From a virus: 23,137 nucleotides of DNA. Made by a program: the position numbers and the translations under genes. A model generated the notes under the pieces. The model made no database searches. It was not told where the DNA came from and was given only the letters and a program-made list of their open reading frames with translations. Position 1 is the first letter of the stretch, and each line of letters opens with the position of its first letter. Location: positions 1-23,137 of IMG/VR virus record IMGVR_UViG_3300009409_000855, one strand, 5' to 3'. Positions 2,964 to 16,725 of the stretch are shown here, in pieces.

Positions 2964-3186
2964 AGCTATAATAGAAAGTATTATAGATGTAGGTAGTGGA
3001 TTATTTTTAGCTATTCTTATTCAATTATATATCTTTCCATTCTTTGGATTATATCCAACTATTTTAGATAGTATAGGAATTGCGTTAATATTTACTGTTG
3101 TATCAATGGTAAGATCAGCATGTTGGAGATACTTCTTTAGAATTAGGCCTATTAATCCGGTTTTAGGAAAAGATGATAGTTTTTAA
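2956..3186 (+). CDS. DUF7220-like small inner-membrane protein
   Basis: A 76-aa protein with two hydrophobic segments (about residues 12-33 and 38-52) joined by a short FGLYPT turn. Between and after them is FTVVSMVRSACWRYFFR, matching the pattern of short phage membrane proteins of the DUF7220 type (GIxxxFTxxSxxRSYxxRRxF). Two membrane helices with a positive C-terminal end are expected. Function is unknown. The gene is coupled on both sides: it starts 8 nt before the previous stop and ends 14 nt inside gp46. Confidence 0.75.
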   Translation: MNKAIIESIIDVGSGLFLAILIQLYIFPFFGLYPTILDSIGIALIFTVVSMVRSACWRYFFRIRPINPVLGKDDSF

Positions 3187-5647: not shown

Positions 5648-6979
5648 ATGAATAAAGAAGACTTTGATATACATGAAAAACAAGATTTAGAAGGCGTTGA
5701 AAAAAAGTGGAAGAAATTCCAAGAAGAAAACGATATATCTAAAGTAGAAGATGTTGATCTAAAACATCTTAAAGAAGAAATAGAAAAAGACCTTGGATAC
5801 GTGTCTAAAATGACCGTACAAGAGTATACATTATTCCAAAAGTGGCAAGAAGTACATAAGAAATATCCTACAACCGAATCAACTACATTGTATGGTACTG
5901 AAAAAATATTAACATCACCTGAACAAAGAACTCAAATAGATACAGTTAGAAATAATATCTGGATTCCAGAATCACCTGAAGACTATGATAAATTAGAACC
6001 TGTATTAGAACCTACAGATGATAGTACAAAAAATTTTAAAGGTAAAGCAGTAAGAACTGCCAAACTATCAGAGAACTGGAATACATTAAGAACGTTTTTG
6101 TCTACTATGAAAAACAATAGTAATATTGGTAGACAACTATTCTTTAATGTAAATGATAACAGATCAGGTAAACATCTAGGTGTCATTTGTATATCTGGTG
6201 ACTTTATGGATTTAACTCCAAGAGACAGTGCTATTGGTTGGGATAGACATAGTAAAACATTTGGTGGTATGATTAATCATACTGCTATTGGTTCCTCTAT
6301 TGTACCAACACAACCTTTAGGTTATAGTTTTACTGGTGGTAAATTATTAGCATATCTATGTTTATCAGATGATGTACAAAGAATATGGCAAGAAAAGTAT
6401 GGCGATAAGTTAGTTGGTGTTACCACAACATCTTTATATGGTAAGGCAAAAGCGAATACTTTAAGTCAATATGATGGTTTAAAATATTGGAAACGTATGG
6501 GTTTCACTATGGGTTCCGTTTCATATGAACCACAATTAGAAACTAAAAATTTAATTAAACAGTGGTTAAAGAAAAATCATACTAGAAAATTCTTTGAATG
6601 GTATGTGGCAACAAGAGCCAATGGCCAACCATTAAAAAGAGATCATAAAAATAGGTCATATATGTTTACTTATTCAAGACTTGGTATACCTAAAGAGTAT
6701 ATAAAAACAGATCATGCTAGAGGTATATACTTTGCAAGATTATATGAGAATACATATGAGTATTTAAGAGGCGAAGTAAAAGATGATGGTTTAAAGAAAC
6801 GATTCGATTCGTCTACCGAAGCATTAGTTAAGGTGTGGAAAGAAAAACATGCCTCTAAAAGAATAAAGAGTCTAGAAAAAACAAATAGATATTCTAAAGA
6901 ATCACATTTTTATGATGATTTGATATACTTAAATTGGGAAGAGTGTAAAGGAAAGTACTTAAATCAAGTAGGAAGATAG
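5648..6979 (+). CDS. DUF4338/DruA-like (GNAT/Mom-related) protein
   Basis: A 443-aa protein. The first 130 residues are charged and helical. The middle (about 160-300) has the order of motifs seen in DUF4338 proteins, including DruA of the Druantia defence system: GKHLGVICISGDF, RDSAIGWDR, HTAIGSSIVPTQPLGY, GGKLLAYLCLSDDV, then W..KYG....GVTTTSLYG and LKYWKRMGFTMG. In that family these correspond to a GNAT-like fold related to the phage Mom enzyme. The C-terminal part (about 305-443) is basic and resembles nothing I know. It has its own consensus promoter. AGGA lies seven bases before the ATG. The domain assignment is by motif order and needs a profile search; function is unknown. Confidence 0.6.
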   Translation: MNKEDFDIHEKQDLEGVEKKWKKFQEENDISKVEDVDLKHLKEEIEKDLGYVSKMTVQEYTLFQKWQEVHKKYPTTESTTLYGTEKILTSPEQRTQIDTVRNNIWIPESPEDYDKLEPVLEPTDDSTKNFKGKAVRTAKLSENWNTLRTFLSTMKNNSNIGRQLFFNVNDNRSGKHLGVICISGDFMDLTPRDSAIGWDRHSKTFGGMINHTAIGSSIVPTQPLGYSFTGGKLLAYLCLSDDVQRIWQEKYGDKLVGVTTTSLYGKAKANTLSQYDGLKYWKRMGFTMGSVSYEPQLETKNLIKQWLKKNHTRKFFEWYVATRANGQPLKRDHKNRSYMFTYSRLGIPKEYIKTDHARGIYFARLYENTYEYLRGEVKDDGLKKRFDSSTEALVKVWKEKHASKRIKSLEKTNRYSKESHFYDDLIYLNWEECKGKYLNQVGR

Positions 6980-11458: not shown

Positions 11459-11662
11459 TTGAGTATAACAGTAGATGTAAGAAATGGTAATGTAGAACAG
11501 GCTTTAAGAGTCTTAAAAAGAAAAAATTTAAAAGATAATTTCCTTAAAAATTATAAGGAAAGAATGTATTTTGAGAAACCTTCTGAAAAAAAGAGACGAA
11601 AAAAGAAAGAAGGAATTGCTAATGCAAAGAGGAAGAAACGTTTACAAGAAAAATTTTTATAA
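11459..11662 (+). CDS. rpsU: Phage-encoded ribosomal protein bS21
   Basis: A 67-aa very basic protein that matches bacterial bS21 over its length: V-x-x-N-x-x-(V/F)-E-x-ALR-x-(F/L)-KR near the N-terminus (NVEQALRVLKRK), then YKERMYFEKPSEKKRRKKKEG, corresponding to the RRREFYEKPTxxRKRxK block, and an Arg/Lys helix at the end. bS21 sits at the mRNA exit platform of the 30S subunit and helps initiation. Virus-encoded bS21 is known, including in SAR11 phages. The start is TTG at 11459, supported by AGGAGG about seven bases before it; no ATG is available in frame. It lies one base after the previous stop, so the two are co-translated. Confidence 0.9.
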   Translation: MSITVDVRNGNVEQALRVLKRKNLKDNFLKNYKERMYFEKPSEKKRRKKKEGIANAKRKKRLQEKFL

Positions 11663-13847: not shown

Positions 13848-14372
13848 ATGGAAATAAAGAATATAAAATTTAAAATACGTGAAGGTGACATATCCGAATC
13901 AGGTGCTTGTAATTTTTCCAATGGTAAATGGGTTGATAGAACTACTGACTATTACTTTAAAGATAAGAAAGTAATTATATTCAGTTTACCAGGAGCTTTT
14001 ACACCAACTTGTACATCACAACAACTTCCAGGTTATGACAACCTGTATACGAAATTCAAAGAACATGGCATAGATGAGGTTTATTGTATATCAGTAAATG
14101 ATTCTTTTGTTATGAATGCATGGAAAACCAACGAACAAATCAAGAACATTAAAATGATACCAGATGGCAATGGCGAACTAACAAAGAGTTTAGATATGTT
14201 AGTTAACATAGAGGCCATTGGTTTTGGTTACCGTTCATGGAGATATGCAGCTATTGTACACAATGGTGATATAATAAAAATGTTCGTTGAACCTGGTAAA
14301 GAATTTAATGATCCATCGGATCCTTATGGAGTATCTTCACCAGAAAATGTCTTGAAATATTTGGAGGCTTGA
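13848..14372 (+). CDS. Prx5-type peroxiredoxin
   Basis: A 174-aa thiol peroxidase of the Prx5/AhpE-like redoxin group. PGAFTPTCTSQQLPGY (near residues 49-64) contains the peroxidatic Cys56 with its usual Thr and Pro, and EVYCISVNDSFVMNAW is the characteristic second block of Prx5 enzymes. GYRSWRYAAIV carries the active-site arginine. Such enzymes reduce peroxides using glutaredoxin or another thiol donor; no fused glutaredoxin is present. The likely role is protection of infected cells from oxidative damage. It has its own short-leader promoter, and the promoter of the next unit overlaps its stop codon. Confidence 0.92.
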   Translation: MEIKNIKFKIREGDISESGACNFSNGKWVDRTTDYYFKDKKVIIFSLPGAFTPTCTSQQLPGYDNLYTKFKEHGIDEVYCISVNDSFVMNAWKTNEQIKNIKMIPDGNGELTKSLDMLVNIEAIGFGYRSWRYAAIVHNGDIIKMFVEPGKEFNDPSDPYGVSSPENVLKYLEA

Positions 14373-14397
14373 CATTTTGAACAAATTGATATAGTAT
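14369..14397 (+). promoter_or_regulatory. Sigma-70-type promoter of the tRNA-Gly and replication operon
   Basis: TTGACA (14369-14374) overlaps the peroxiredoxin stop codon. After 17 nt follows TAGTAT (14392-14397), with TATAGT at 14395-14400 as an alternative. Transcription should start close to 14404, practically at the first base of the tRNA (14405), leaving little or no 5' leader. Confidence 0.75.
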
Positions 14398-14404
14398 AGT
14401 AAAT

Positions 14405-14478
14405 GCGGATGTCGTATAAAAGTATTATGATAGGTTTCCAACCTGTAGAACTTGGGGCAGTACCAAGTATCCGCTCCA
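14405..14478 (+). tRNA. tRNA-Gly(UCC), unusual D- and T-loops, CCA encoded
   Basis: A full cloverleaf is visible. The acceptor stem GCGGATG (14405-14411) pairs with TATCCGC (14468-14474), with one G-T pair, then discriminator T and an encoded CCA (14476-14478). The anticodon stem ATAGG/CCTGT (14430-14434, 14442-14446) holds the loop TTTCCAA with anticodon TCC (14437-14439). The T-stem CTTGG/CCAAG is perfect. It resembles E. coli tRNA-Gly(UCC), sharing GCGG, TCGTATAA, TTCCAA and CGCTCCA. Two parts are not canonical: the T-loop reads GGCAGTA instead of TTCRANY, and the short D-loop (TAAAAGTAT with a 3-bp stem) has only one G where GG is expected. The usual elbow contact therefore cannot form. 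Confidence 0.88.
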
Positions 14479-14531
14479 AAAAGAAAAGTTAAATAAAAAA
14501 AAGTTAAATTATGAATAGGAGTGATTACAAA

Positions 14532-15197
14532 ATGAACTTGTCCACAAACACAATAGCTTTGTTAAAAAATTTCTCTGATATAAATCAGAACATTTTAATT
14601 AAGCCAGGAAATAAGATACAAACTATTTCCAATATGAGAAATATTTTAGCAGAGGCTGAAATAAAAGAAAAATTTGATAGTGAATTTGCTATCTATGATC
14701 TACCACAATTTTTAAGATCATTGGATTTATTTAAAAGTCCTGAACTAACGTTTAATGGTGGTGCTTCAATGACTATCAGTGAAGCTAAAGAGGGAAGAAA
14801 ATCAGTTAAGTATTTCTTCTCTGATAAATCTACGGTGTTTACACCTAATAAGATTAACATGCCAGATAAACATGTTTCATTTCAATTAAAAAATGATGAC
14901 TTAGCTGAACTACATAAAGGCGTTACAACTTTAAATTTACCAGATGTTGCTGTAATAGGCGATGGTAAAGATATTAAATTAGTGGCTACTGATAAGAAAA
15001 ACAAGACTTCTAACGTAGTGTCTTCTGTAATCGGAAAATCAGATATTAAGTTTACTGCTTACTTTAAATCAGAAAACTTTAAGATGATACCAGATGATTA
15101 TGATGTAGCAATATCAAAAGCAAAAATATCTAGTTTCATTAGTAGAGCAAAAAACGTCCAATATTGGATTGCATTAGAACCTGATTCTGAATTTTAA
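14532..15197 (+). CDS. 45: Sliding clamp gp45
   Basis: A 221-aa processivity factor, matching T4 gp45 (228 aa). MNLSTNTIALLKNFSDINQNILIKPG aligns with T4's MKLSKDTTALLKNFATINSGIMLKSG, and the end YWIALEPDSEF matches YVVALEADSTHDF. I chose the ATG at 14532 because of this alignment and AGGAG ten bases upstream; an in-frame ATG at 14511 would add seven residues but has no ribosome binding site. The trimeric ring tethers gp43 to DNA and activates late transcription with gp55 in T4. The gene begins the classical 45-44-62-regA-43 operon and is co-transcribed with the tRNA in front of it. Confidence 0.93.
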   Translation: MNLSTNTIALLKNFSDINQNILIKPGNKIQTISNMRNILAEAEIKEKFDSEFAIYDLPQFLRSLDLFKSPELTFNGGASMTISEAKEGRKSVKYFFSDKSTVFTPNKINMPDKHVSFQLKNDDLAELHKGVTTLNLPDVAVIGDGKDIKLVATDKKNKTSNVVSSVIGKSDIKFTAYFKSENFKMIPDDYDVAISKAKISSFISRAKNVQYWIALEPDSEF

Positions 15198-16229: not shown

Positions 16230-16376
16230 ATGGCAAAGAGAACATTATGGAGAGTTATGATAGTTAAGTTTAGAATGTGGTATGCTGACGTAAGAGGACA
16301 CCACGGACATAGATGGAACTACGAACCATCCGAGCATTATATGGGTAGACACCCAAACAAAAATGGCAGACATTAA
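16230..16376 (+). CDS. 48-aa basic His/Trp-rich small protein
   Basis: ATG at 16230, TAA at 16374-16376. The product begins MAKRTLWRVMIVKFRMWY, continues with RGHHGHRWNYEPSEHY and ends MGRHPNKNGRH. It has three Trp and six His in 48 residues and a strongly basic charge. It overlaps the start of the bL12 gene by 14 nt in another frame, a normal arrangement in this genome, and fills the otherwise empty stretch after gp44. I do not know the family. The biased composition and the overlap favour a real gene, but no strong Shine-Dalgarno is present (AAAGAGATAAAG lies 9-20 nt before). Metal or nucleic-acid binding is only suggested by the composition. Confidence 0.6.
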   Translation: MAKRTLWRVMIVKFRMWYADVRGHHGHRWNYEPSEHYMGRHPNKNGRH

Positions 16377-16725
16377 CAAATTATTAAATGAAATAGGTAA
16401 ATTAACTATGCAAGAAGCTGCTGATATGGCCAAAATGATGGAAGATCAGTGGGGAATACAAGCAAGTAATTTACAAGCAGCTGCTCCAACCCCTGTTGCA
16501 GTTTCAGAAGAAAAGAGTACAGCTACAGTTATATTAAAAAGTTTTGGTGAAAAGAAAATGGGTGTATTAAAAGTTGTTAAAGAAGTATTAGGATTAGGCT
16601 TAATGGAAGCAAAGACTTTTATTGAAGATTTACCTAAAACGGTTGAAGAAAACCTTGAAACAGCACATGCTGAAGAATTAAAGAAGAAGTTAGAAGACGC
16701 TGGCGGAACAGCAGAACTTAAATAA
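16363..16725 (+). CDS. rplL: Phage-encoded ribosomal protein bL12 (L7/L12)
   Basis: A 120-aa protein, the normal bacterial length (E. coli 121). Residues 1-33 form the dimerisation helices (LLNEIGKLTMQEAADMAKMM), followed by a short Ala/Pro hinge (LQAAAPTPVAVSEEK) and the complete C-terminal domain (residues 52-120) with VILKSFGEKKMGVLKVVKE, then LGLGLMEAKTFIEDLP and the ending LKKKLEDAGGTAELK. The GLGLxEAK patch and Lys residues that contact EF-Tu, EF-G and IF2 are kept. bL12 forms the flexible stalk of the 50S subunit and recruits translation factors; it is exchangeable, so a phage copy can enter host ribosomes. It sits inside the clamp-loader operon, between gp44 and gp62. Viral bL12 has been reported before, but this location is striking. 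Confidence 0.95.
   Translation: MADINKLLNEIGKLTMQEAADMAKMMEDQWGIQASNLQAAAPTPVAVSEEKSTATVILKSFGEKKMGVLKVVKEVLGLGLMEAKTFIEDLPKTVEENLETAHAEELKKKLEDAGGTAELK

Follow-up and report, generated by a model that had tools for sequence, protein, structure and literature searches.

Matched replacement of D- and T-loop bases in a viral tRNA-Gly and in hundreds of other, mostly viral, tRNA genes

The stretch of viral DNA analysed here (23,137 nucleotides, hereafter the window) carries a gene that is probably a working elongator tRNA-Gly, with an elbow that is re-coded and not missing. Hundreds of tRNA genes, most of them viral, show that positions 18-19 and 55-56, and positions 54 and 58, change as matched sets, of which the window gene carries one. 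The pairs concerned, G18-psi55, G19-C56 and T54-A58, are ordinarily presented as near-universal contacts, and programs that find tRNA genes depend on them. In excerpts of the published accounts, G18-psi55 and G19-C56 are called invariant, with tRNA-Pyl noted as lacking both (PMC6337575), and reviews describe the elbow bases as conserved or universally conserved (PMC4810234; PMC7912444). For pelagiphages and methylophages, tRNAs have been studied with tRNAscan-SE and ARAGORN; the excerpt available shows tRNAs for Arg, Leu and Trp (PMC9004378). We found no report of natural elbow re-coding in phage tRNAs in the open-access literature, nor GGCAGUA as a tRNA loop in titles and abstracts; the T-loop of alphaproteobacterial tmRNA is already in Rfam and is to that extent a known part.

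The tRNA-Gly gene of the window

The gene lies at positions 14405 to 14478 of the plus strand, with the anticodon TCC at 14437-14439, U73 and an encoded CCA, as identified by Rfam, a cloverleaf parser and the fold. The original prediction had placed it at exactly these coordinates, with this anticodon and CCA, well-paired stems, the T-loop GGCAGTA and a D-loop with a single G, and the sequence agrees on every count: pairing is complete in the acceptor (7/7), anticodon (5/5) and T (5/5) stems, and reaches 3/4 in the D-stem, which has a single U-U. The minimum free energy is -22 kcal/mol (z = -2.38 against 200 shuffles). The match to the tRNA family RF00005 (14405-14475, 35.8 bits, E = 0.00029, above the gathering score of 29) is the sole Rfam match in the window at E<=1, with no tmRNA covariance model matching at that threshold, and ARAGORN called no tRNA anywhere in the window. 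In the register of the 7-nt D-loops used for our covariation counts, the D-loop AAAAGTA (14418 to 14424, plus strand) reads A14 A15 A16 A18 G19 U20 A21, without G18-G19; the T-loop (14456 to 14462, plus strand) reads G54 G55 C56 A57 G58 U59 A60. Among the canonical elbow contacts (G18-U55, G19-C56, U54-A58), G19-C56 alone is retained. On the comparisons given below, the missing contacts weaken the description of the gene as a canonical tRNA and not as a tRNA, a covarying set taking their place.

By sequence the gene has what is expected of an elongator tRNA-Gly, namely an NCC anticodon, U73, G1-C72 and C2-G71; together with C35 and C36, these are the bases that we take to be the glycine identity elements, and all are retained. 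Canonical tRNA-Gly(UCC) has the cloverleaf, the identity bases and CCA in common with it, as in the canonical copy of one SAR11 genome (G042; GCGGGTG...U73), but that copy combines AATGGTA with TTCGATT, whereas the phage copy combines AAAAGTA with GGCAGTA. Two other identities were considered and rejected: alpha_tmRNA (RF01849), the defining features of which we did not find in a gene that has an anticodon arm, and an assembly error or decaying tRNA, identical or close forms being known from a cultured phage and from tens of contigs.

The window also encodes, by Pfam, a B-family DNA polymerase, a gp45 clamp, a gp44-type clamp loader and a phage translational regulator. The host is probably a SAR11 bacterium, because Pelagibacter phage Mosig EXVC030M is the named phage that matches best around the locus, at 70.9% over 58% of the query. 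Codon supply is no obvious reason for the tRNA, because the open reading frames favour GGU over GGA and GGG: the glycine codons of the 21 counted in the window are GGT 209, GGA 68, GGC 36 and GGG 9, which gives 209/322 for the preferred codon and 77/322 for the two read by UCC via plain wobble.

Covariation of the D- and T-loops

We parsed 2,517 distinct tRNA sequences from the fetched loci with a cloverleaf parser of our own, which keeps one best cloverleaf per T-arm, leaves the letters of the D- and T-loops outside its score, and slightly favours D-loops of 7-9 nt and variable loops of 4-5 nt; the main covariation count requires CCA, T33 and a parser score of at least 35. Five viral scans returned at least 120 matches each, and their counts are samples; two scans had the D-loop AAAAGTA in the pattern, so that its frequency there is by construction, and the others selected on the T-arm only. 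Kinship among sequences was handled solely by collapsing identical combinations.

The two loops follow a near-perfect code, in which U55-C56 goes with G18-G19, G55-C56 with A18-G19, U56 with A19, A56 with U19, and G56 with C19. Among 7-nt D-loops (n = 859, of which 7 tRNAs in T-loop classes of fewer than three members are left out of the class figures), T-loops of type NTC came with GG in 571/574 cases, NGC with AG in 201/202, TTT with GA in 33/35, TTA with GT in 21/22, TTG with GC in 3/3 and TCC with GG in 14/16. Outside the four scanned T-arms (2,243 tRNAs), the figures for 7-nt D-loops were 571/574 for TC-GG, 69/70 for GC-AG, 22/22 for TT-GA, 4/5 for TA-GT, 3/4 for TG-GC and 14/17 for CC-GG; counted leniently over all D-loop lengths, they were 1909/1926, 187/189, 53/53, 14/16, 10/12 and 29/33, in the same order. 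Mutual information is highest, among the D-T cells, at 18-55 (0.708 bits) and 19-56 (0.521 bits; 592 collapsed combinations), cells for which 300 shuffles gave a maximum of 0.024 bits. The next cells (0.256-0.268 bits) join 18 with 54, 58 and 60, which is what a joint switch of 54-58 with 55 would produce, and the mutual information of 54-58 is 0.683 bits (813 collapsed T-loops). The pair 54-58 is U-A in 2101 of the 2,517 sequences, A-U in 198, G-G in 134, A-A in 43 and C-A in 28. All four Watson-Crick forms occur at 19-56 (G-C 790, A-U 34, U-A 21, C-G 4, other 10; n = 859), and 18-55 is G-U in 631, A-G in 205, G-C in 16 and otherwise in 7 of the same 859. The window set has its place in this code: A18 opposite G55, G19-C56, and G54/G58 replacing U54-A58.

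On this covariation, loss of the elbow is rejected. The original prediction had argued that both sides of the D-loop/T-loop contact changed together while the stems stayed intact, through selection and not decay, and the covarying loops bear it out; its description of a tRNA without the usual elbow does not hold, the changed bases obeying a code that would preserve the tertiary contacts.

Three loop combinations, suggested by a few examples that are counted within the later totals, were predicted in writing before new T-arm-only scans, and all three held. Among the matches listed, AGCGTTA came with AG in 72/78 (56/56 in 7-nt D-loops), TTAGATT with GT in 42/44 (17/17) and TTTGAAT with GA in 65/67 (11/13, both exceptions being GG). 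Further matched sets were first seen in bystander tRNAs of the fetched loci. Two kinds of gene match the scans on the T-arm only: alpha-type tmRNA, at its 3' end, and tRNAs for a wide range of isoacceptors. The GGCAGTA tRNAs that these scans returned have mostly AAAAGTA-like D-loops. In the G55-C56 class 40 anticodons are represented, over 315 loci, and the combination AAAAGTA/GGCAGTA, in which AAAAGTA was partly selected, is found again on unrelated contigs in tRNAs for Gly, Gln, Lys, Val, Ile, Thr, Glu, His and Met. Identity bases in the A/GGC class were found as follows: U73 in 59/65 Gly, G3-U70 in 5/5 Ala, C73 in 12/13 His, A73 in 13/13 Val, 13/15 Lys and 29/29 Ile, and G73 in 7/7 Asp and 6/6 Trp; identity was weaker in Gln (G73, 10/14) and Phe (A73, 6/9). 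T-loops with and without TTC occur together in 174/190 loci with at least five parsed tRNAs, partly by construction, because a re-coded T-arm was what selected many of the loci. ARAGORN calls overlap 1759/1772 of the TTC tRNAs in the set, 3/121 of the GGC and 40/110 of the AGC tRNAs, and the re-coded phage class is largely invisible to this program.

Among known molecules, tRNA-Pyl has the T-loop UUAGAUU and UGU in the D-loop, which resembles the A56/U19 code, according to an excerpt of its description (PMC6337575); it differs by a small D-loop and a 6-bp anticodon stem, and does not have the A18/G55 code of the window. The Streptomyces phages Jay2Jay and Anedea carry, among mostly canonical tRNAs, a tRNA-His(GTG) with AAAAGTA/GGCAGTA, annotated in Jay2Jay and absent from the annotation of Anedea, and Aeromonas phage LAh_6 has a tRNA-Phe with GG/ATCGTTA and a CAT tRNA with TGCAATA. 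Dense tRNA arrays lie on verrucomicrobial contigs (Chthoniobacter flavus and two MAGs; L364 1540-6090, L362 1495-5610, L365 556-3080), and most of the tRNAs parsed in them have non-TTC T-loops of several codes. Two more contigs (L134 and L091) hold long cloverleaf-like genes with GGCAGTA and the anticodon loop TTATAAA, which by the parser fit no ordinary isoacceptor.

SAR11 counterparts, proposed mechanism and rival explanations

Matched sets of this kind also occur in SAR11 genomes. In G042, for which 30 Rfam tRNA matches are listed, the sole listed tRNA-Phe(GAA) has AGGAGTA/TGCGAAT, tRNA-Val(GAC) has AATAGTA/AGCGTAA, and tRNA-Thr(GGU) has GG with GTCAGTA. In loci drawn by similarity to a re-coded gene (17/60 genomes matched, 13 loci parsed as Val(GAC)), 13/13 Val(GAC) genes combine AG with AGCGTAA, AGCGTTA or GGCAGTA. 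In Pelagibacteraceae AG-410-N23 the loops of tRNA-Val are exactly AAAAGTA/GGCAGTA; the contig that carries this gene also has a canonical tRNA and genes that look, by eye, bacterial in type. For Phe, 29 of 30 loci were parsed, 10 re-coded and 19 canonical, and both loops always switch together; the exact Phe form (CTGAAAA ... GGTGCGAATCC) is not widespread, because it was found in 0/190 genomes at class level. These Val and Phe genes share A18/G55 and G19-C56 with the window gene, and differ from it in being cellular genes for other isoacceptors and, in Phe, in having the T-loop TGCGAAT or TGCGATT.

The two-piece tmRNA of Alphaproteobacteria (RF01849) has a T-loop GGC[g/A]GUA and a GG->AG change in the D-region, as in the window gene, which differs from it by a complete anticodon arm, glycine identity and no tag reading frame. 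Rfam confirmed RF01849 on five phage loci, and the consensus shows an equal switch, AUAGGAU with GGC[g/A]GUA versus AUGGuUU with UUCGAUU. The T-arm GGGGCAGTACC-N11-CCA occurs in 133/197 SAR11 genomes, and all but two matches are of tmRNA type, an identity that rests on 3' ends judged by eye, the Rfam run having covered the phage loci. Permuted tmRNAs of the alpha type are encoded by phages (L200, L213, L163, L182 and L165, by Rfam), and a promoter-like TTGACA/TATAAAT stretch lies just 5' of some of them (by eye).

Because SAR11 tmRNA, tRNA-Val(GAC) and some tRNA-Phe use such sets, the elbow of the window gene is probably compatible with translation, and A18/G55 in SAR11 tRNA-Phe and tRNA-Val argues for its compatibility with charging and EF-Tu binding. 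This speaks against the earlier suggestion that the tRNA escapes translation like a staphylococcal tRNA-Gly, as do a T-loop that is also that of alphaproteobacterial tmRNA and the retained glycine identity bases. In the mechanism that we propose, the RNA would take the normal L shape, with A18 standing in for G18 and the T-loop closed by G54/G58 instead of U54-A58; host GlyRS would charge it, and glycine codons would be read in elongation. The least certain step is that an elbow with neither U54 nor U55 would need neither T54 nor pseudouridine-55, an independence that would suit hosts lacking TruB and tRNAs made fast during infection. Two observations stand against this idea of modification: codes altering only 19-56 keep U54-U55 and are left unexplained by it, and 3 of the 13 genomes with re-coded Val bear TruB.

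TruB (PF01509) was found in 20/60 SAR11 genomes (G002-G066) versus 14/14 controls; the completeness of the genomes is unstated, and absence from the other 40 may partly reflect missing sequence. It was present in 0/10 genomes with re-coded Phe versus 8/19 with canonical Phe (p = 0.027 by Fisher's test, uncorrected for kinship). TrmFO and TrmA passed the cut-off in 0/60 SAR11 genomes each, with controls passing in only 7/14 and 1/14, too few for these zeros to count as absence of a T54 enzyme. The TruB distribution fits a relaxed constraint on U55 without being proof of it. A tentative alternative goes further along this line: modification of U54/U55 was lost, and fitting pair sets drifted in by compensation with no benefit. 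The TruB counts favour such drift, but AAAAGTA/GGCAGTA recurs across nine isoacceptor types of unrelated contigs and is carried by Streptomyces phages, which makes drift possible and not probable.

Evasion of immunity, in which the elbow would be re-coded to avoid host nucleases or factors that read G18-G19 or T54-psi55-C56 while the L is kept, seems unlikely to us. The matched codes number at least five instead of one, which is what diversifying selection would produce, and excerpts of the literature provide precedents: changes in the anticodon loop of phage tRNAs are predicted to let them escape anticodon nucleases (PMC10264068), and Cas12a3 engages the tRNA T-arm, though through the backbone (PMC12851939). 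However, the excerpts yielded no defence nuclease reading elbow bases, and re-coded tRNAs occur in SAR11 genomes too. A wider form of the idea is just as doubtful: the elbow might be a re-writable mark of self and non-self in phages and mobile tRNA arrays, hiding their tRNAs from elbow-reading host nucleases or modification enzymes with the L kept, and the occurrence of matched sets in all four Watson-Crick forms of 19-56 might be read, with equal doubt, in this sense. One elbow code is used by SAR11 tRNAs and alphaproteobacterial tmRNA themselves.

The remaining explanations fare worse. Integrases use tRNA T-arms, and altered T-loop DNA might escape the integrases, introns or homing elements that target T-loops. 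The T-loop of tmRNA genes does host group I introns, according to an excerpt of one study (PMC11915505), but escape at the DNA level would not predict matching changes in the D-loop and is highly improbable. Even less credit goes to mimicry of tmRNA, or a decoy for SmpB and tmRNA, whereby a T-arm copied from host tmRNA would disturb trans-translation; the T-loop is identical to that of host tmRNA, and the same excerpt describes a CDS-less tmRNA of phage DS6A that inhibits E. coli tmRNA (PMC11915505). Against this, the window gene has a full anticodon arm and the identity of glycine, not alanine, its T-loop is common to many isoacceptors, and some relatives at the locus have AGCGTTA instead. 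It is barely conceivable that the gene supplies glycine for a purpose other than translation, as the peptidoglycan tRNA-Gly of staphylococci does, also a glycine tRNA with changed D- and T-loop bases: the glycine anticodon and the altered elbow agree with this, but the staphylococcal bases are described as lost, whereas the window has a matched replacement common to many isoacceptors and to SAR11 tRNA-Val, and pentaglycine bridges are characteristic of staphylococci. The staphylococcal tRNA also binds EF-Tu poorly and is used by Fem-type transferases, and no observation on the window gene points to either property.

Neither a decoy function nor one in peptidoglycan synthesis has to be invoked, because the re-coded elbow would be compatible with translation. 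Ribosomes altered by the L7/L12 and S21 domains of the phage are possible, but need not be invoked either. The natural covariation amounts to a ready experiment on what the ribosome, EF-Tu, RNase P and TruB need of the elbow, and re-coded elbows offer orthogonal tRNA parts. Evasion of tRNA-targeting immunity through the elbow of phage tRNAs also becomes testable.

Locus, promoter and gene neighbourhood

The tRNA gene is followed by the gp45 sliding clamp gene (14511 to 15197, plus strand; Pfam gp45-slide_C, 38.7 bits), through which we found 115 relatives; the best 80 of them, some with short upstream sequence, were surveyed for a tRNA at most 500 nt upstream of gp45. A tRNA was present in 50/80, with GGCAGTA and the anticodon TCC in 41, AGCGTTA and ACC in 8, and AGCGTTA and GCC in 1; none was parsed upstream of gp45 in 30/80. 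A canonical T-loop, which the original prediction had named as a sign of decay or assembly error, was found in 0/50 tRNA-bearing relatives, and the D-loop was AAAAGTA in 50/50. The copy in the cultured phage Mosig has the anticodon ACC, is 86.5% identical to the window tRNA, and underlies an annotated hypothetical protein (Mosig_000011). The anticodon ACC for glycine is rare in bacteria; the loci that show it, for Mosig and some relatives together, are L280 (~3014-3087), L055, L068, L070 and L073-L077. Close tRNA-Gly copies on three other contigs (L085, L154 and L160) end in TCG instead of CCA and have no TTGAC upstream.

A promoter-like site, TTGACA-17-TAGTAT (14369 to 14397, plus strand; 10/12 matches), has its -10 element ending 7 nt before base 1 of the tRNA. 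Taken alone it is weak support, because the region contains 4 such sites against 1.9 expected from shuffles. In 80 distinct 45-nt upstream sequences of the window tRNA type, the distance from the start of TTGAC to base 1 is 36 or 37 nt in 59, and TTGAC is absent in 11. This conserved spacing supports a transcription start at or next to base 1; the original prediction had put it at base 1. By eye, 22 of the 30 tRNA-less relatives have a TTGAC-type promoter directly before gp45, 7 have none and 1 begins at gp45. Judged by these 22, the tRNA sits between promoter and gp45, and the promoter leading into gp45 would also transcribe the tRNA from at or next to base 1, setting its 5' end.

Elsewhere in the window, Pfam identifies ribosomal protein L7/L12 and S21 domains, encoded at 16363-16725 and 11459-11662, and an ORF at 5648-6979 with a DruA domain (58.8 bits, cut-off 27), a domain that takes its name from the Druantia defence system and is here encoded within a phage.
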